NCBI RefSeq assembly: GCF_000612545.2
Contig: NZ_CP097800.1
Location: 6,750,001 to 6,814,000, forward strand
Source of the DNA: Streptomyces sp. PCS3-D2
Lineage (GTDB): Bacteria > Actinomycetota > Actinomycetes > Streptomycetales > Streptomycetaceae
Direction of reading: 5' to 3'
DNA: 64,000 bases
This document shows, piece by piece, positions 55,376 through 63,585 of this stretch. Below the pieces are notes generated by a model that was not told the origin of the DNA, searched no databases, and saw nothing but the letters and a program-made list of their open reading frames with translations. Position numbers and translations under genes: made by a program. How positions within the stretch are numbered: position 1 is the first letter of the stretch; the number at the start of each line of letters is the position of its first letter.

Positions 55376-56653
55376 TCAGGGGCGGGACAGCGCGCCCTCG
55401 GGCGGGGCCGACACCCCGTCCCGCGCGGTCACCTCCCTGGCTCGCAGCCGGGTCAGCGCCGGGCTGGTGACCGCCGTCGTCACCAGCGCCATCAACACCA
55501 GCATGGTGAACAACTCCGGTCCGATGACGCCGAGTTCCAGCCCGACGTTGAGCACCACCAGCTCGGTCAGCCCACGGCAGTTCAGCACGGCGCCGATCGA
55601 CAGGGCCTCCCGCCACGGTCTTCCACAGGCGCGTGCCGCGCCCGCGGCGCCGCCCCACTTGCCGAGGAAGGCCACCGCCAGGATCGCGCCCGTCCAGAGC
55701 CACATCCCGGGCGAGCCCGTCAGGCTGCCGAGGTCGGTGCGCAGGCCCGTGTGCACGAAGAACAGCGGCAGCAGAACGGGCACCGTGAAGGCGCGCAGCC
55801 GGGCCGCAGAGACCTCGATGCGCCCACCGGTGCGCGGGGTGACCACGCCGAAGAGGAAGGCGCCGAACAGCGCGTGCACGCCGATCAGGTCGGTGGCCAG
55901 CGCGGACACGCTCAGCCCGCTGAAGAGCGCCACCAGGACCGCGGCGTCCCCGGCCCGGTCGGCGCGGACCGCCCAGCGGGCCAGCAGCGGCCGCACCGCG
56001 TACAGCATGAACAGGGTGAAGGCCACGGCGAGGCCGGCCGTGGTGGCCGCCTCCATCGGGGACCCGGCCGTGGCGAGGGCCACGACCAGGGCGAGCAGGC
56101 ACCACGCGACGACGTCGTCCACGGCCGCGCAGGCCATCGCGAGGATGCCGAGCGGTGTCCCGTACAGGCCCCGGTCGGTGAGGATGCGGGCCAGGACCGG
56201 GAAGGCCGTGATGCTCATGGCCACTGCCATGAACAGGGTGAACGGCATCCGTCCCACACCGTCCGGGGCGAAGCCGTCGTACATCGCGATCGCGAGGAGC
56301 GCGCCCAGCACCAGCGGCAGCAGCATCCCGGCCTGGCTCACCGCCACCGCGACGCGGGTGTGGCCGCGCAGGCTCTTCAGGTCGAGCTCCAGCCCGACCA
56401 GGAACATGAAGGCGAGCAGCCCGAGTTGGCCGAGCACCGAGGTGTACGGCAGGACGGACGCGGGGAACAGCGCCTGCTGGGCCTGTGGCCAGATCCAGCC
56501 CAGCAGGGACGGGCCCAGCAGGATGCCGGTGGCGATCTCGCCCACCACCGGGGGCTGGCCGAACCGGCGACAGACGGCGGCTCCCGCCTGGCAGGCGAGG
56601 ATCACGGCCGGAACGGCGACCAGCAGTGCGGGCAGCGGGTCAGCGGACGGCAC
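55376..56653 (-). CDS. CPA2-family cation/proton antiporter
   Basis: The 425-residue product has about 12-13 membrane helices. Family signs include GQPPVVGEIATGILLGPSLL, FMFLVGLELDL, SITAFPVLARIL and CAAVDDVVAWCLLALVVALA with the paired Asp residues that carry cation and proton. The LFFVHTGLRTDLGSL region and NCRGLTELVVLNVG are also typical of KefB/NapA-type exchangers. No TrkA-N domain is attached. It overlaps the 3' end of the flavin reductase gene by 14 bp, so it may share a transcript with the biosynthetic cluster. Confidence 0.93.
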   Translation of the reverse strand: MPSADPLPALLVAVPAVILACQAGAAVCRRFGQPPVVGEIATGILLGPSLLGWIWPQAQQALFPASVLPYTSVLGQLGLLAFMFLVGLELDLKSLRGHTRVAVAVSQAGMLLPLVLGALLAIAMYDGFAPDGVGRMPFTLFMAVAMSITAFPVLARILTDRGLYGTPLGILAMACAAVDDVVAWCLLALVVALATAGSPMEAATTAGLAVAFTLFMLYAVRPLLARWAVRADRAGDAAVLVALFSGLSVSALATDLIGVHALFGAFLFGVVTPRTGGRIEVSAARLRAFTVPVLLPLFFVHTGLRTDLGSLTGSPGMWLWTGAILAVAFLGKWGGAAGAARACGRPWREALSIGAVLNCRGLTELVVLNVGLELGVIGPELFTMLVLMALVTTAVTSPALTRLRAREVTARDGVSAPPEGALSRP

Positions 56654-57260
56654 GGGCGTCTCCTTCGGGAGCGCCGGGGTGCAGGGCGGCGGCCGGGTCG
56701 AGGCGGGCGTCCGGCGGCGGGACCGCGGCCGCCTGCGACCACTGCGCGTAGCGGCGCAGGCCGTACAACAGGGGCTGCGGATCGTCCCGTACGCTCACCC
56801 GGTGGACCTCGGCGAACACGGCCGTGTGGTCGCCGAAGCCGACGGTCCTGACGACGGCACAGTCCGCGACGGCGTGCGCGTCCGCGGTCAGGTGCGGCCC
56901 GCCCGCCCCCAGGGGCAGCCGCCACTCGACGCGCTCGAAGCGGTCGGGTGCGCCCGAGGCGAACAGGTCGGAAGCACCCCGGGCGCGCTCGTGCAGCAGG
57001 TTGAGGGCGAAGGCCCCCTGGTCGAGGACCACCGCGAGAGTGGGGCTCGCCGCCCGGACGCACACCACGATGGTGGGCGGGTCGAGCGCGACACTCGCGA
57101 CGGAACTGCAGGTCAGGCCGTGGGGCAGGGTGTCCGAATCCAGAGTGGTCACGATGGACACCCCGCTGGGGAAGGCCGCCATGAAGGGCCGGAGGTCCGT
57201 GCGGCGGCCTCTGGCGGACTCGTCCGGCGCGGCGGGATGGGGCGCGGAGCGGTGGGGCAT
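56640..57260 (-). CDS. Flavin reductase, probable halogenase partner
   Basis: The 206-residue product matches the short-chain flavin reductases (HpaC/RebF type): FMAAFPSGVSIVTTLDSDTL, GLTCSSVASVALDPPTIVVC, FALNLLHERARGASDLFA and the GDHTAVFAEVHRV stretch. These enzymes use NAD(P)H to make FADH2, which flavin-dependent halogenases need. AGGAG lies 6 bp before the ATG. The halogenase gene is immediately upstream on the same strand, with an 84-bp gap that contains a strong hairpin. Confidence 0.92.
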   Translation of the reverse strand: MPHRSAPHPAAPDESARGRRTDLRPFMAAFPSGVSIVTTLDSDTLPHGLTCSSVASVALDPPTIVVCVRAASPTLAVVLDQGAFALNLLHERARGASDLFASGAPDRFERVEWRLPLGAGGPHLTADAHAVADCAVVRTVGFGDHTAVFAEVHRVSVRDDPQPLLYGLRRYAQWSQAAAVPPPDARLDPAAALHPGAPEGDARAVR

Positions 57261-57344: not shown

Positions 57345-58946
57345 TTACGCGCCGTGCAGTTGGCGCAGGTAGTCGTACGCGCTGGGGAGGGTCTCCAGCA
57401 GGTTCTGCTGCTGGCGCTTGACGGTGTCGAAGAGCGGCTCGGCGCCGGCCACCGATTCGGGCCGGTGCGCGAGGGTGGGCAGCGGGGCGTCCGGCTCCAG
57501 GCCGAGGCCGGCGAAGATGCAGTAGTAGCTGCCGTTGGTCCAGAAGTTGCGGAACTCCGCCTCGAAGTTGCCGTAGTAGGTGGACTCGTCGGTGATCGGG
57601 GAGTTGATGGGCAGACCCGCCTTGTAGGCGGAGATCTTCTGCTTGATGTTGTCCGGCAGCACGAGCTTCTTGTTGGCCTGCCAGAACGGCGTGTCGTTGC
57701 GCGGCGCGTAGAAGAAGTGCGCCTGGATGAAGTCGCGGGTGTCGTCGAACATCACCTCGATCTCGTGGTTGAAGCTGTCGATCAGACCCTCGTTGAAGGT
57801 CTTGTCCGGGAAGTGCTTGGCCAGCTGGTAGATCGCGGCCGTGATGAAGTAGATGCCGGTCGACTCCAGCGGCTCCAGGAAGCAGGACGACAGGCCGATG
57901 CTGACGACGTTCTTCACCCACGCTCGGCGGTTGCGGCCGACCCGGAAGCGGATGTGGTTGAACTTCGTCTCCTCGACGTCCAGGCCCCACATGTCGGCGA
58001 ACTCGCGGGTGGCGGCGTCCTGGTCGGTGAACTTGCTGGAGTACACGTAGCCGGTGCCGAAGCGGCCCAGCATGGGGATCTTCCACGCCCAGCCCGACGA
58101 CATGGCGATGGCCGAGGTGTACGGCTCCACCCCGTTCGCCTCGTCGTCGTGCGGGACGGCCGTGGCCACCGCGCTGTCGCACAGCAGGTGGTCGCTCATG
58201 TCGATGAACGGCTCCTGCATCGCCTGGTTGATCAGCAGCCCGCGGAAGCCCGAGCAGTCCACGAACAGGTCGGCGTCCAGCGCCAGTCCGCCCTTGGTGT
58301 GCAGTGTCGTCACGTGTCCGCGGGAGTCCTGCTCGGCCCGCACCATCTCGTCCTGCACGTGGTTGACGCCCTGCTTCTCGGTGGCGAAGCGGCGCAGGAA
58401 GTCGGCCACCAGCTGGGCGTCGAAGTGCCAGGCGTACCGGGTCGCCGGGCGACCGTCGAGCCAGCGCGGCGCCTTCATCGCGTCCATCACGGGGGGCTCG
58501 CGGAAGCAGGCGTAGTCGAACGGCTCGGTGGTGCGGCCCTCGTACTTGCGCTTGAACCAGTAGTGCGACAGCGGCGTCTGGTCGTAGTCGGGCAGCAGCC
58601 CGAAGGGGTGGTAGAAGTGGTCCGGGCCGCCGCCCGGCAGCTCCCGGGCCGTCGACTCGCCCTGCCCGTCGGTGCGCCAGTTCACGAAGCGCACGGCCAT
58701 CTTGAAGCTGGCGTTGCACTCCCGCATCCACTCGTCCTCGGCGATCCCCAGGTAGTCGAAGAACGAACGCTGGAGGTTGGGCACGGTGGCCTCGCCGACC
58801 CCGATGCGCGGGATCGTCGGGGCCTCCAGGACGGTGATGTCGACCGTTCCCTGGAGCGCCTTGCCGAGATACGCGGCCGTCATCCAGCCGGCCGTGCCGC
58901 CTCCCAGGATGACGACCTTCTGAAGCCGGGTGTCGGTGCTGGTCAT
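57345..58946 (-). CDS. Flavin-dependent tryptophan halogenase
   Basis: The 533-residue product is full length. FAD binds at GGGTAGW (15-21). The catalytic Lys is K82 in [15 protein letters not shown]. The halogenase signature WxWxIP is WAWKIP (286-291), and the Glu of FLEPLEST (E358) sits where the active-site Glu lies in PrnA/RebH. Residues ahead, such as [20 protein letters not shown], match the tryptophan-specific branch. It most likely chlorinates free tryptophan. The ring position cannot be fixed by eye: the N-terminal half recalls 7-halogenases such as RebH, while the end ([20 protein letters not shown]) recalls 6-halogenases. GAGGG precedes the ATG. Confidence 0.95.
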
Positions 58947-58992: not shown

Positions 58993-59024
58993 TCAGTGTC
59001 GAAAAACGCCCTATCACCGCCCTA
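58993..59024 (-). promoter_or_regulatory. Putative SARP operator and -10 region of the halogenase gene
   Basis: Two perfect heptamers, CGCCCTA at 59007-59013 and 59018-59024 (TAGGGCG on the coding strand), are 11 bp apart from start to start. SARP activators bind such repeats with the inner one 8 bp from the -10 box. Eight bases after the inner repeat there is CACTGA (58998-58993, minus strand), a possible -10. The halogenase start is 46 bp further on. Confidence 0.62.
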
Positions 59025-59046
59025 CACCGCAAGGATCCGGCCGTTG

Positions 59047-59078
59047 TAGGCCCGATATAGGCCCCCCGAACACACTCT
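59047..59078 (+). promoter_or_regulatory. Putative SARP operator and -10 region of the SARP gene
   Basis: TAGGCCC occurs at 59047-59053 and 59058-59064, again with 11-bp period. Eight bases further is CACTCT (59073-59078), matching the first four bases of the hexamer found at the halogenase side. The layout suggests that the SARP activates its own gene. The heptamers differ from those of the halogenase promoter only in the last G/C positions. Confidence 0.58.
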
Positions 59079-59121
59079 TCGCAGGCAGAGCGGCAGGCGG
59101 GACGACGACCGGGAGGACGCG

Positions 59122-60117
59122 ATGACCACCGCAGCGACCGAGAAAGCGGGGCCGGCGGTACGCGTCCGCTTCCTGGGCGATTTCGAGCTGACCGTGAACG
59201 GCACCCCCGTGCGGCGCTGGCGCGCCGGCAAGGCCCGCGGCCTCTTCCAGTACCTGGTGGTCCACCGCGGCCAGATGCTCACCCGCGACCGGCTCTACGC
59301 GTCCCTGTGGCCCGGCACCGACAGCACCGCGGGCAGCTCGCTCAAGGTCGCCGCCCACGCCCTGCGCCGGGTGCTCGACGCCCACCCCGACCGGCCCGGG
59401 GACTCCGGGATCCAGCTGGTCTACCGCGACTTCGGCTACGTCCTGCACGTCGCCGGCCTGTGGTGCGACCTCGACCGCTTCCAGGAACTCGTGCACGCCG
59501 GCCTGCGGGCCGCCACCGCCGGCGACACCGCGCTCGCCCGGACCCGGCTGCGGGCCGCGATCGCCCTCTACGGCGGGGAGTTCCTGCGCGGCGAGAGCGC
59601 CGACTGGGTCGTCGAACAGCGCGAGTACCTCCGGGCGCTGGTGCTGCGGGCACTGGGCGTGCTGCGCGCCGACGCCGAGGAACGCGAGGACTTCGTGGAG
59701 CTCATCGAGCTCTGCAAGCGCACCCTGGAGATCGACCGCCACCACGAGGAGACCTACCGCGCGCTGATGGCCGCCCACGGCCGGCGCGGCGAGCTGGCCT
59801 GCGTACGCCGCTGGTACGAGCTGTGCGCCCGCCGGCTGCGCGACGAGCTGGCGGTGGCGCCGGGCGCGGAGACCCAGCGGCTGCTGCGCTCCCTGATCCC
59901 GGCCGCCGCCCGCAGCGCCGCTCCGGCACCGGCCTCCGTCGGCGGCGCCCCCGCCACGGTCCGCGCGCTGCGGCCGGCAGGGCGCCAGCCCGGAACGCCC
60001 CCGTGGACCGCGGAGGTCCGTACGACCGTCACCCTGGCCCGCCCCGTCCGCAGGGCCAGGCCCGACACCCGGGCCCCGGCCGTCCTGGCCCGCACCGCGG
60101 ACCCCGCGACCGCGTGA
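59122..60117 (+). CDS. SARP-family pathway activator
   Basis: The 331-residue product has an OmpR-like winged helix (VRVRFLGDFELTVNGTPVRR, SLKVAAHALRRVLDA, YRDFGYVLHV; residues ~13-110). A bacterial transcriptional activation domain follows (CDLDRFQELVHAGLRAATAG, LYGGEFLRGESADWVVEQRE, LIELCKRTLEIDRHHEETYR; ~115-260). A Pro/Arg/Ala tail of ~70 residues closes it. GGGAGGA precedes the ATG. SARPs switch on antibiotic clusters, and this one sits centrally in the halogenase/NRPS cluster. The heptamer repeats upstream point to autoregulation. Confidence 0.93.
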   Translation: MTTAATEKAGPAVRVRFLGDFELTVNGTPVRRWRAGKARGLFQYLVVHRGQMLTRDRLYASLWPGTDSTAGSSLKVAAHALRRVLDAHPDRPGDSGIQLVYRDFGYVLHVAGLWCDLDRFQELVHAGLRAATAGDTALARTRLRAAIALYGGEFLRGESADWVVEQREYLRALVLRALGVLRADAEEREDFVELIELCKRTLEIDRHHEETYRALMAAHGRRGELACVRRWYELCARRLRDELAVAPGAETQRLLRSLIPAAARSAAPAPASVGGAPATVRALRPAGRQPGTPPWTAEVRTTVTLARPVRRARPDTRAPAVLARTADPATA

Positions 60118-60172: not shown

Positions 60173-61756
60173 GTGACCGTGCTGACCGTGCCGACCGTGC
60201 CGCAGGACTCCAGACCGCCCGGCGGCGAACCGAACGCGGCACCCCTGCCGCCCCGTTACACCGACCAGTGGATCGGCGGCGCCTGGGTCGCCTCCGACAC
60301 CGACGGCCGCCTCGTGGTGACCGACCCCGCCACCGAGCGCGCCCTGGCCACCGTGCCCGCCGGCACCGCCCGGGACGCCGACCTCGCCGCCCGCGCGGCC
60401 GCCGCGGCCTTCGAGGGCTGGGCTGCCACCCCGCTGCGCGAACGCACCGCTCTGCTGCGCAGGGTCGTCGAGGCCATGGAGGCACGGGCCGACCGCTTCG
60501 CCGAGGTCATCACCGCCGAGGTGGGCGCGCCCACCCGGATGGCCCGCCACACCCACGTCGGGCTCTCCCTCGGCATGGCCGCGCACTGCGTCGAGACCGC
60601 CGCCTCCTACTCCTTCGAGGAGCGCGTGGGCCACTCGCTCGTCGTGCGCGAGGCGGCGGGGGTCGCCGCTTGCATCACCCCGTGGAACACCCCGCTGCTG
60701 CTCACCGTGCAGAAGATCCTCCCGGCGCTCGCGGCCGGCTGCACCGTGGTGCACAAGCCGAGCGAGATCACCCCGCTGCACGCCCGGCTGTTGGCCGAGG
60801 CCATCGCCGAGGCGGACCTGCCGCCCGGGGTCTTCAACATGGTCGTCGGCACCGGCGACACCGTCGGGACCGCGCTGGTCGCCCATCCGCTGGTCGACGT
60901 CGTCTCCCTGACCGGTTCCACCCGGGCCGGACGCGACGTCTCCGCGCTCGGCGCCGACCGCCTCAAGCGCGTCCACCTCGAACTCGGCGGCAAGAACGCC
61001 AGCCTCGTCCTCGACGACGCGGACCTGGCCCCGGCCGTCGCCGCCACCGTCGACCAGATGCTCTTCAACACCGGCCAGACCTGCCTGCAGTGGAGCCGGC
61101 TGCTGGTGCCGCGCGAGCGCCAGGACGAGGCCGTGGAGCTCGCCGTCCGGGCCATGGACGGCTACGTCACCGGCGACCCGCGCGACCCCGCGACCGATCT
61201 CGGCCCGCTGGTGTCCGCGGCCGCGCACGCCCGTGTCACCGCGTACATCCGCCGCGGCGCCGAGGAAGGCGGAGCCCGTCTGGTCCACGGCGGCCCCGAC
61301 CGGCCCACCGGCCTCGACACCGGCTACTACGTCCGGCCGACGGTCTTCGCCGACGTCGACCCGCTCACCACGATCGCCCAGGAGGAGATCTTCGGGCCGG
61401 TGCTGTCCGTCATCCCCTACGACGACGCGGAGCAGGCCGTCCGGATCGTCAACGGCACCCGCTACGGGCTGCACGGCGCGGTCTGGTCCGGCGACGACGC
61501 CCGCGCCCAGCGGATGGCGCGCCGCTTCCGCTCCGGCCTGGTCGACGTGAACGGCGGCCAGTTCAACCCGGCCGCACCGTTCGGCGGGTTCAAGCAGTCC
61601 GGGATCGGCCGAGAGTGCGGCACCGCCGGGCTGGAGGCCTTCCTGGAGACCAAGTCGATGCAGCTCCCGCAGGGCGCGGGGGACCAGGTGGTGGGCCCGC
61701 GGCTGCGGGCCACCGAGGCCGCCCGCCCCGTGGACACCGAGAGGAACGACGGATGA
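60173..61756 (+). CDS. Aldehyde dehydrogenase of the biosynthetic cluster
   Basis: The 527-residue product has the complete catalytic set: ACITPWNTPLLLTVQKILPA for the cofactor region, HKPSEITP, the Glu in VHLELGGKNASL (E270) and the nucleophile in FNTGQTCLQWSR (C304). The active-site loop [14 protein letters not shown] and the C-terminal [13 protein letters not shown] are also present. It oxidises an aldehyde to an acid with NAD(P). In this cluster the substrate could be an indole- or amino-acid-derived aldehyde. The stop overlaps the start of the adenylation-carrier gene as ATGA, so the two are co-translated. Confidence 0.94.
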   Translation: MTVLTVPTVPQDSRPPGGEPNAAPLPPRYTDQWIGGAWVASDTDGRLVVTDPATERALATVPAGTARDADLAARAAAAAFEGWAATPLRERTALLRRVVEAMEARADRFAEVITAEVGAPTRMARHTHVGLSLGMAAHCVETAASYSFEERVGHSLVVREAAGVAACITPWNTPLLLTVQKILPALAAGCTVVHKPSEITPLHARLLAEAIAEADLPPGVFNMVVGTGDTVGTALVAHPLVDVVSLTGSTRAGRDVSALGADRLKRVHLELGGKNASLVLDDADLAPAVAATVDQMLFNTGQTCLQWSRLLVPRERQDEAVELAVRAMDGYVTGDPRDPATDLGPLVSAAAHARVTAYIRRGAEEGGARLVHGGPDRPTGLDTGYYVRPTVFADVDPLTTIAQEEIFGPVLSVIPYDDAEQAVRIVNGTRYGLHGAVWSGDDARAQRMARRFRSGLVDVNGGQFNPAAPFGGFKQSGIGRECGTAGLEAFLETKSMQLPQGAGDQVVGPRLRATEAARPVDTERNDG

Positions 61757-63585
61757 CCGAGCCCCTCGCCGGGCCGCCCGGGGCGAACGCCCCGGGCGGG
61801 CTCCCGCCGCTGTTCGCCCGCCTGGAACGGTGGACCCGCGAACAGCCGAACGAGACCGCGGTCAAGGCCGTGGACGGGAATCTCACCTACGCCGCGCTGA
61901 CCGCCCGCACCGCCCGGTACGCCGCCGCCCTCGCCCGCGCCGGAGTCGGCCCGGAGACCTCGGTCGGGCTCCTGCTGGGACGTTCCCGGGAGAGCGTGCC
62001 CGCCCTCCTCGCCGTCTGGAGCCTGGGTGGGACCGCCGTACCGCTGGACCCCGGGCACCCCGTGGAACGCCTCGGCGGCGTACTGCGCGACGCCGGGGCC
62101 GCGGTCCTGGTCGCCACCGGGGTGCCCGCCGGCCTGGAAGCGGGCGGGACCGAACTCCTGACCCCCCGCGAGGTCCGCCGCGGCGCCCCCGGGGCACTCG
62201 CCGTGTCCCCGCCCGCCCCCGACAACTGCGCCTACCTCATCTACACCTCCGGAACCACCGGCCGTCCCAAGGGCGTCGAGGTCACCTACCGCGGCCTGGA
62301 CACCTTCGTCGAGGCCCTCCGCGGACTCGGCCTGCCGCCCGGCGGTCTGGGCCTCAACGCCGTCTCGCCCGCCTTCGACGGCTGGCTCTGGTGCACCCTC
62401 CTCTACCTCGTGCACGGCCAGGGGGTGGCCCTCACCGACCTCTCCCTCGACGGACTGCGGCAGGCCGCGGCGGAGGGCCGTGAGCCGCTGCCCGCCGGAC
62501 TGCGCACCGTCTCCCTCACACCGTCGCTGCTCGCCGCCCACGGCGCGGGACTCGACTCCGCCGAGGTGGTCGTCGTCGCCGGGGAGGCCTGCCCGGCCGC
62601 TCTGGCCGAGCGGTTCGCCCGGGACCGCCGCCTGCTCAACGTGTACGGGCCGACGGAGGTGACCATCGCCGCCACCTGGGCCGACAGTCGACGAGGGGAC
62701 GACGTGACCGGAATCGGACGACCGCTGCCCGGCTACCGGGCGTACGTGCTGGACGAGGAGCTGCGGCCGGTGCCCGCGGGTGCCGAGGGCGAGCTCTACC
62801 TGGGCGGGCCCGCCGTCGCCCGCGGCTACCGGGGCCGCCCCGGCCTGACCGCCAGCCGCTTCCTGCCCGATCCCTTCCAGGGCGGCGGCACCCGCATGTA
62901 CCGCACCGGCGACGTGGTGGTCCGCCGCGACGGCGGCGAACTGGAGTACCGGGGCCGCCGGGACGACCAGGTCAAGATCCGCGGCCACCGCATCGAGCTC
63001 GGCGAGATCGAGCGCGTCGCCGCAGAACTCCCCGAGGTCGTCGCCGCCGCCTGCTGCCCGCTGGCCTCGGGACAGGCCCTCGGCCTCGCCGTCGTCGCCG
63101 CCCCCGGCGTCGACGACCCGGACGGGCTCGCCGGCCGGGTCGTCGAACGCTGCCGCAAGCAGCTGCCCGCCGCGGCGGTACCGGGCACGGTGCGGGTACT
63201 GGACCGGATCCCGACCCTGACCACCGGCAAGGCCGACCGGGTGGCGCTGGCCCGGGCCCTGGAGCAGCCGGAAGACGGCGCCGGAAGCGGCTCGGCCGGG
63301 GACGGCGCGGTGAGTGCGAGCGAGCGCACCGTGATGACGGTCTGGGCCGAGGTGCTCGCCACCGAGGTCCCCGGCCCCGAGTCGGACTTCTTCGACCTCG
63401 GCGGTCACTCCCTGGCGGCCGCCCGAGCGGTCTCCGAGCTGCGCCGTGCCACCGGACTGCGGGTCGGCCTCGGTGCGCTCCTGGCCCGGCCGACGGTCAC
63501 CGACGTCGCCGCCGAGATCGACCGGCTGGCGGCCGAACAGGGCGGGTCCGCAGCCGATGCGGCCGGCGCCGCCGAAGGGGCGTAG
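61753..63585 (+). CDS. Stand-alone NRPS adenylation-carrier didomain
   Basis: The 610-residue product activates an amino acid and loads it on its own carrier domain; no condensation or thioesterase domain is attached. Core motifs: A3 YTSGTTGRPKG (164-174), A4 with D209, A5 NVYGPTE (296-302), A7 YRTGD (383-387), A8 VKIRGHRIELGEIE (407-420) and the A10 Lys in LTTGK (K493). The carrier motif is LGGHSL with S553 for phosphopantetheine. The pocket residues read by eye are D, G, W, S, V, A, V, I, A, K; the substrate is not certain from this. Confidence 0.94.
   Translation: MTEPLAGPPGANAPGGLPPLFARLERWTREQPNETAVKAVDGNLTYAALTARTARYAAALARAGVGPETSVGLLLGRSRESVPALLAVWSLGGTAVPLDPGHPVERLGGVLRDAGAAVLVATGVPAGLEAGGTELLTPREVRRGAPGALAVSPPAPDNCAYLIYTSGTTGRPKGVEVTYRGLDTFVEALRGLGLPPGGLGLNAVSPAFDGWLWCTLLYLVHGQGVALTDLSLDGLRQAAAEGREPLPAGLRTVSLTPSLLAAHGAGLDSAEVVVVAGEACPAALAERFARDRRLLNVYGPTEVTIAATWADSRRGDDVTGIGRPLPGYRAYVLDEELRPVPAGAEGELYLGGPAVARGYRGRPGLTASRFLPDPFQGGGTRMYRTGDVVVRRDGGELEYRGRRDDQVKIRGHRIELGEIERVAAELPEVVAAACCPLASGQALGLAVVAAPGVDDPDGLAGRVVERCRKQLPAAAVPGTVRVLDRIPTLTTGKADRVALARALEQPEDGAGSGSAGDGAVSASERTVMTVWAEVLATEVPGPESDFFDLGGHSLAAARAVSELRRATGLRVGLGALLARPTVTDVAAEIDRLAAEQGGSAADAAGAAEGA

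Follow-up and report, generated by a model that had tools for sequence, protein, structure and literature searches.

Two pairs of short direct repeats lie back to back between a halogenase gene and the gene of a small SARP activator (SARP1) in Streptomyces sp. PCS3-D2. This raises the question whether the repeats are operators of two divergent SARP-dependent promoters and, if so, which SARP reads them. The window analysed here is the whole stretch of 64,000 nucleotides from contig NZ_CP097800.1, and all positions refer to it unless stated otherwise.

On the minus strand we found the gene of a flavin-dependent tryptophan halogenase (57345..58946; Pfam Trp_halogenase, E 3.3e-162), whose closest solved relatives are named tryptophan 6-halogenases (PDB 6ul2, E 1.6e-270). 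It is followed by a flavin reductase, probably the partner of the halogenase (56640..57260; Flavin_Reduct), and by a cation/proton antiporter as the third gene of the row (55376..56653; Na_H_Exchanger). On the plus strand lies SARP1 (59122..60117; 331 aa), in which an N-terminal OmpR-type DNA-binding domain (ODB; Trans_reg_C, E 1.8e-8) precedes a BTAD domain (E 2.1e-18), both above the Pfam cut-off. Its best PDB matches are EmbR and AfsR, and an AlphaFold model made with 14 sequences had a mean pLDDT of 51.9, too poor for a fold search. The SARP1-side row continues with an aldehyde dehydrogenase gene (60173..61756, plus strand; Aldedh) and, overlapping it, the gene of an NRPS adenylation-thiolation (A-T) didomain protein (61753..63585, plus strand; AMP-binding, PP-binding).

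Beyond the window, Pfam identified a thioesterase, a P450, an A-T-C-MT NRPS, a PPTase, an AlkZ-like protein, an MFS transporter and a C-A-T-TE NRPS; a further open frame appears NRPS-like by eye. A convergent C-A-T NRPS gene and two more SARP genes are also present there. SARP2, encoded approximately 33 kb downstream of the boxes in the same cluster (G000:C1:6841605-6843488, minus strand), has 628 aa and the order ODB-BTAD-NB-ARC (BTAD E 3.8e-41, Trans_reg_C E 2.5e-7, NB-ARC E 8.9e-12). It thus has the length of about 600 aa and the SARP domain plus NB-ARC by which medium SARPs, CdaR among them, are defined in the relevant part of PMC10972967. SARP3, at the far end of the cluster, is an AfsR-like large SARP of 1014 aa with BTAD, NB-ARC and TPR domains. 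These genes belong to a peptide-type biosynthetic cluster of Streptomyces, a presumed chlorotryptophan NRPS cluster.

Paired boxes and their conservation

A preliminary description of this region had reported the heptamer CGCCCTA at 59007 and 59018 and TAGGCCC at 59047 and 59058. These letters and positions were confirmed, as were the 11-bp period and the outward orientation of both pairs and the presence of CACTGA and CACTCT 8 bp past each downstream heptamer. We delimit the halogenase-side box TGTAGGGCGGTGATAGGGCG at 59007..59026 (minus strand), with RTAG half-sites at 59025-59022 and 59014-59011, and the SARP1-side box TGTAGGCCCGATATAGGCCC at 59045..59064 (plus strand), with RTAG half-sites at 59046-59049 and 59057-59060; the half-sites have an 11-bp period in both. 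The probable -10 hexamers are GACACT at 58995..59000 (minus strand) for the halogenase promoter, with A at position 2 and T at position 6, and CACACT at 59071..59076 (plus strand) for the promoter of the SARP1 operon. Between 58900 and 59200, no sigma-70-like promoter was found on either strand. Provided that the -10 is the proposed hexamer, the -35 place is occupied by the upstream repeat.

Scanning genome contigs with SARP1 gave 13 orthologous loci, 12 from Streptomyces and one from Frankia canadensis. Conserved pairs in related clusters, on which the preliminary description had made its interpretation depend, are indeed there: TAG-N8-TAG is kept on both sides in all 13 further loci, and so in 14/14 with the window included. 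Since this holds for all orthologous loci, the boxes are very probably SARP-type promoters. The assignment to SARP-class operators of two divergent promoters is supported by the repeat period, the -10 distance, the lack of a sigma-70-like promoter and the conservation. The halogenase, flavin reductase, SARP1, aldehyde dehydrogenase and A-T genes are each present in 13/13 orthologous loci. The antiporter was found in 12/13, the exception being the Frankia locus, and the P450 in 12/13, the exception being locus L016; the loci end there. One further orthologous locus, in genome G051, has a SARP1 of 75% identity and both boxes. In Frankia canadensis, where SARP1 (64% identity) and the boxes persist together, the intergenic region is about 700 bp long and the boxes are 489 bp apart, each before its own gene, which indicates two operators and not one composite site.

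Two other features of the intergenic region were noted. Positions 59081-59097, beyond the -10 of the SARP1 promoter (GCAGGCAGAGCGGCAGG in the window), show broad conservation in the Streptomyces loci, where a few bases differ. A short in-frame leader before the halogenase gene (58994-58946) was considered and dropped, as it would begin upstream of the expected transcript start and its frame, compared by eye, is not kept in two of the loci (L017 and L018).

How rare are such pairs? The window has only two TAGGNC pairs at the 11-bp period, those described here, compared with a mean of 0.02 in 100 shuffled sequences, none of which had two. The preliminary description had considered this geometry hard to attribute to chance. 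In the 7.63-Mb genome, two of the three TAGGSCS pairs are those described here; the reversed pattern occurs 13 times. The third pair (G000:C1:6719958) was not supported as a further target; it is one of four background pairs, has no -10 A and T, and is spanned on the other strand by an open reading frame of 588 aa. TAG-N8-TAG by itself is not rare (300 Markov sequences had 1.33 on average, and the window has two), so that the case rests on its conservation and the flanking -10. With the hexamer included as TAGR-N7-TAGR-N12-ACT, the genome has three matches, two of them here, and five to the reversed control. In the home genome, the pattern TRTAG-N7-RTAG-N11-A-N3-T matches only the two sites described here (reversed control: one); in 13 further genomes it has 29 matches, 26 of which are at these two promoters (control: two). 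As this pattern was derived from these very sites, only its rarity elsewhere counts as a test.

A genus survey covered a sample of 61 genomes including the home genome; G060, G063 and G055, which have the same coordinates as G028, G022 and G030, were treated as the same genomes. Matches were found in 12 genomes, 26 in total; since the reversed control had 36, the pattern as such shows no over-representation. Ten of the 26 are orthologous promoters (five genomes), seven lie in the clusters of two other genomes, G054 and G059, and nine are elsewhere.

Site rule and -10 register

For the site rule, 28 sites (window included) were compared from column -40 to 59, counted from the first TAG as column 0. 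Invariant in 28/28 are T at -2, TAG at 0-2, TAG at 11-13, A at 25 and T at 29. The invariant A and T are four bases apart, as are positions 2 and 6 of a -10, which places the hexamer at columns 24-29. It reads CACACT in 13 sites, GACACT in eight and CAGACT in three, with four singles.

In the hexamer starting with CACT that had been proposed before, a (C/G)ACT start is present in 24/28 sites, but the sixth base is T in only 5/28. As a -10, CACTnn was rejected in favour of the conserved SACACT-like hexamer 2 bp upstream, with its A and T in 28/28 sites. When the heptamer is likewise moved by 2 bp, to TRTAGRN, the published 8-bp distance to the -10 is restored. Equally, TAGGSCS turned out to be too narrow as the specific site: TAG is the only invariant part of that heptamer, and diverged orthologues carry TAGAGC, TAGCTC, TAGAAC and similar sequences, on which account the strict form was discarded. 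SARP operators have two or more direct repeats at an 11-bp (or 22-bp) period; the present sites have such repeats at 11 bp in 14/14 loci, a 3′ repeat 8 bp from the -10, given TRTAGRN as heptamer and SACACT as hexamer, and, with the -10 so placed, a 5′ repeat over a poor -35.

The clusters of G054 and G059, chosen from the genus survey for four and three pattern matches, respectively, within about 40 kb, allowed a comparison outside the orthologous loci. Seven loci with 106 kb were analysed (L106-L109 from G054 and L110-L112 from G059; 12 kb of the G059 region were left out). Compared to the window, the halogenase is 82-84%, the flavin reductase 65-66% and the antiporter 68-69% identical, and long NRPS genes are present. 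Pfam identified a TauD-type dioxygenase in the stretches of both genomes, a PPTase, an ABC transporter and a carrier protein in that of G054, and an MbtH protein in that of G059. From its gene set, we take this cluster to be lipopeptide-like.

All 12 TAG-N8-TAG pairs in these stretches carry A25 and T29, for which base composition predicts 1.7% each; of four background pairs from other loci (93 kb), one carries both. The A and T of the SACACT -10 are hence also in 12/12 pairs of two other halogenase clusters, while the register of the preliminary description (A27 and T31; hexamer 26-31) fits 0/12. R at -1 is present in 12/12 and T at -2 in 7/12, so that RTAG-N7-RTAG-N11-A-N3-T fits all 12 pairs. 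Selection applies to the seven that fit the full pattern by which the two genomes were noticed. The other five were found by TAG-N8-TAG alone, without the full pattern, and are free of it. The number of pairs as such (12) is little above the composition expectation (9.6). In both genomes a box is located upstream of the halogenase gene, 103 and 85 bp from the first aligned codon.

Both stretches also encode SARP2 orthologues (55% and 54% identity). The row of halogenase, flavin reductase and antiporter together with SARP2 is thus common to the present cluster and to a different NRPS cluster, which suggests that a supply module may have moved together with its regulator.

Candidate readers and a second box family

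We favour, with somewhat more than even confidence, the reading that the boxes are two back-to-back SARP-dependent promoters most likely read by SARP2, with SARP1 as a second tier. Co-occurrence, the recognition helices and genome G003 lead us to rank SARP2 first, SARP1 second and SARP3 third. SARP2 is present in 14/14 genomes tested with the cluster of the window (63-100% identity; in G031 the gene is divided between contig ends) and in each of the 16 genomes examined for it when G054 and G059 are added. Its recognition helix is nearly identical in the home genome, Frankia, G054 and G059 (SAQ[LI]YTY[IM]SRLRK, with YAQ in Frankia) and retains T88 and R92, the residues that read bases in the AfsR structure as presented in PMC10936776. 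SARP1 has V and A at these two places (phmmer alignment, our numbering). The same account of AfsR lists Q48, W74, P79, T88, R94 and K95 as conserved DNA-contacting residues (PMC10936776); in the phmmer alignment and our numbering, SARP1 keeps W74 and R94, whereas K95 is replaced by R, T88 by V and P79 by D.

The preliminary description had assigned the site to the adjacent small SARP. SARP1 would then bind both boxes and activate its own operon as well as the halogenase operon, as an autoregulated pathway activator. The boxes do flank the SARP1 gene in 13/13 orthologous loci, as for an autoregulated SARP, the two persist together as far as Frankia, and a SARP site before its own gene is known from PieR and pieR (PMC10972967, in the portion dealing with such sites). 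Autoregulation would confine the box to places where SARP1 occurs, but the 12 pairs of G054 and G059 stand in two halogenase clusters where no SARP1-like gene was found and which share SARP2 at 54-55%. The only match to SARP1 at E 1e-5 in these stretches is to the SARP2 homologue of G059 (29%), and the best matches in the whole genomes (37% and 32%) are on other contigs. Conversely, the box pattern has no match in G003, where a SARP1-like match (42%) is present; as the latter runs over two TGA codons, the gene may be shorter or broken. Distant SARP1-like proteins at L022 and L023, with the same SSLKVA helix start, also have no TAG pair upstream. Because all 14 cluster genomes have both SARP1 and SARP2, only the two clusters and this one weak counter-case, G003, separate the two regulators. 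On this evidence the assignment to SARP1 is probably wrong, and we regard it as unlikely. SARP2 is the probable driver because clusters in which no SARP1-like gene was found carry the boxes and encode SARP2 orthologues.

A reading of the boxes by SARP3 or another AfsR-type protein would agree with the SARP3 homologue in the G054 stretch (47%) and with a partial C-terminal match (36%) in the G059 stretch, close to its edge. The 18-kb Frankia stretch, however, keeps the boxes and SARP2 and has no SARP3 match except to that SARP2, and by helix alignment SARP3 differs from AfsR at both base-reading places, which makes this reading rather improbable. Direct repeats are also used by other OmpR-type regulators, and since binding by a SARP is itself deduced from sequence, a factor outside the SARP family might bind here, with the SARP-like geometry being coincidental. 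The period, the -10 distance, the lack of a sigma-70-like promoter and the SARP2 gene in 16/16 genomes speak against such a coincidence, to which we give very little credence.

Our preferred reading, with SARP2 as the reader, leads to a model in which we infer binding, activation, the transcription units and a cascade from the observed repeats, their geometry and conservation, the -10 register and the co-occurrence with SARP2. A SARP dimer would bind two RTAG half-sites separated by one turn of the DNA, where the missing -35 would be, and would bring RNA polymerase to SACACT, a weak -10 not expected to be recognised on its own, as modelled on AfsR and afsS. One promoter would serve the halogenase, flavin reductase and antiporter genes, the other the SARP1 gene, the aldehyde dehydrogenase gene and the first NRPS genes. 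SARP2 would switch on chlorotryptophan supply and SARP1 together, with SARP1 as the second tier. In this way SARP2 probably drives both the halogenase and the small-SARP operons, in a cascade like CpkO-CpkN or PolY-PolR.

A second, TAAC-type box family is present in the same cluster. Upstream of the MFS gene, a TAAC-type repeat with 11-bp period and a TANNNT hexamer is found in 13/13 genomes, its second repeat being YAAC. The pattern RTAACCG-N5-YAAC-N10-TANNNT has exactly two matches each in 13/14 genomes, and the reversed control has none. In these 13 genomes the two stand before the MFS-NRPS row and before the convergent NRPS gene; in the home genome they lie outside the window, at L004:12453-12484 (plus strand; 71453-71484 in the frame of the window) and L005:13599-13630 (minus strand; 91599-91630 in that frame), respectively. 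The second box is about 20 kb from the first, inside the 3′ end of the SARP2 gene, and played no part in making the pattern, which was drawn from the MFS site. Frankia has no exact match to the pattern; a relaxed pair, TAACTGG...TAAC with CAGGCT, stands there before the convergent NRPS gene. Beside the TAAC pair upstream of the MFS gene, 10/13 genomes also have a TAG-N8-TAG pair (L004:12421-12438, minus strand), which we did not accept as a promoter box, as it is antisense and without a -10. In G054, a TAAC-N7-TAAC pair followed by TAGCTT is located upstream of the SARP2 homologue (L106:470-500, plus strand); by eye, a degenerate form, TATC/YAAC, likewise with TAGCTT, is seen at the corresponding position of the SARP2 promoter in the home genome.

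We tentatively consider it possible, though not the likelier outcome, that the cluster uses two SARP codes. SARP2 would read RTAG boxes at the operons of the halogenase and of SARP1. TAAC boxes at the MFS-NRPS row, at the gene of the convergent NRPS and perhaps at SARP2 itself would be the target of SARP1 or SARP3. In the different, lipopeptide-like cluster, the row of halogenase, reductase and antiporter would recur together with the RTAG code and the SARP2 lineage, as a chlorotryptophan supply module with a switch of its own.

Known systems and biological meaning

The closest comparison is AfsR at afsS of S. coelicolor, as far as it is set out in the passages of PMC10936776 used here, with further AfsR data in PMC10972967. 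There, too, two 11-bp direct repeats lie over the -35 place before a weak -10, printed as CACTGT, and the SARP dimer acts as a sigma adaptor. In the corrected register our units align with the afs box (-40 to -19). Their upstream unit has T-N-Y-A in common with it and agrees at T, Y and A with CGTTYATCGNN, the unit of AfsR. For the downstream unit the fit is only partial, its third base being T in 12/28 sites. The present sites differ in having RTAG as half-site instead of CGTTYATCG, in forming two promoters back to back and in that their reader is deduced.

Other relatives are described in the corresponding portions of two sources. In the pairs CpkO-CpkN, PolY-PolR and RslR3-RslR2 (PMC10972967), one cluster SARP activates the gene of another; in contrast, the same kind of box is proposed here to serve a pathway operon and a second SARP gene in opposite directions. 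The SanG site between sanO and sanN and the PolR site between polB and polC (PMC10972967) are two-heptamer SARP sites between genes, whereas here there are two separate full sites, one per direction, which in Frankia are 489 bp apart. The predicted OtcR and Ctc11 sites of the oxy and ctc clusters (PMC4393881) also lie in bidirectional regions and have 11-bp direct repeats with the 3′ repeat 8 bp before the -10, but their repeat has 9 nt and another sequence (CGGTCGAAG in oxyI).

According to these parts of PMC10972967 and PMC4393881, SARP boxes are known already, as are their occurrence between divergent genes and cascades of SARPs within one cluster. New are the present instance, the corrected site rule and a probable mismatch between neighbour and reader. 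In the sections of the literature consulted, we recognised no report on this cluster or on an RTAG-type SARP site; we do not claim absence from print.

RTAG-N7-RTAG-N11-A-N3-T provides a rule for finding promoters of one SARP lineage, partly checked on independent sites. The findings also suggest that the position of a SARP gene next to a box says little about whether its product reads that box. Two box families together with three SARPs that have different recognition helices form a natural set for studying how a helix chooses its DNA. If our reading is true, awakening the chlorotryptophan NRPS cluster would need expression of SARP2 and not only of the halogenase-adjacent SARP.
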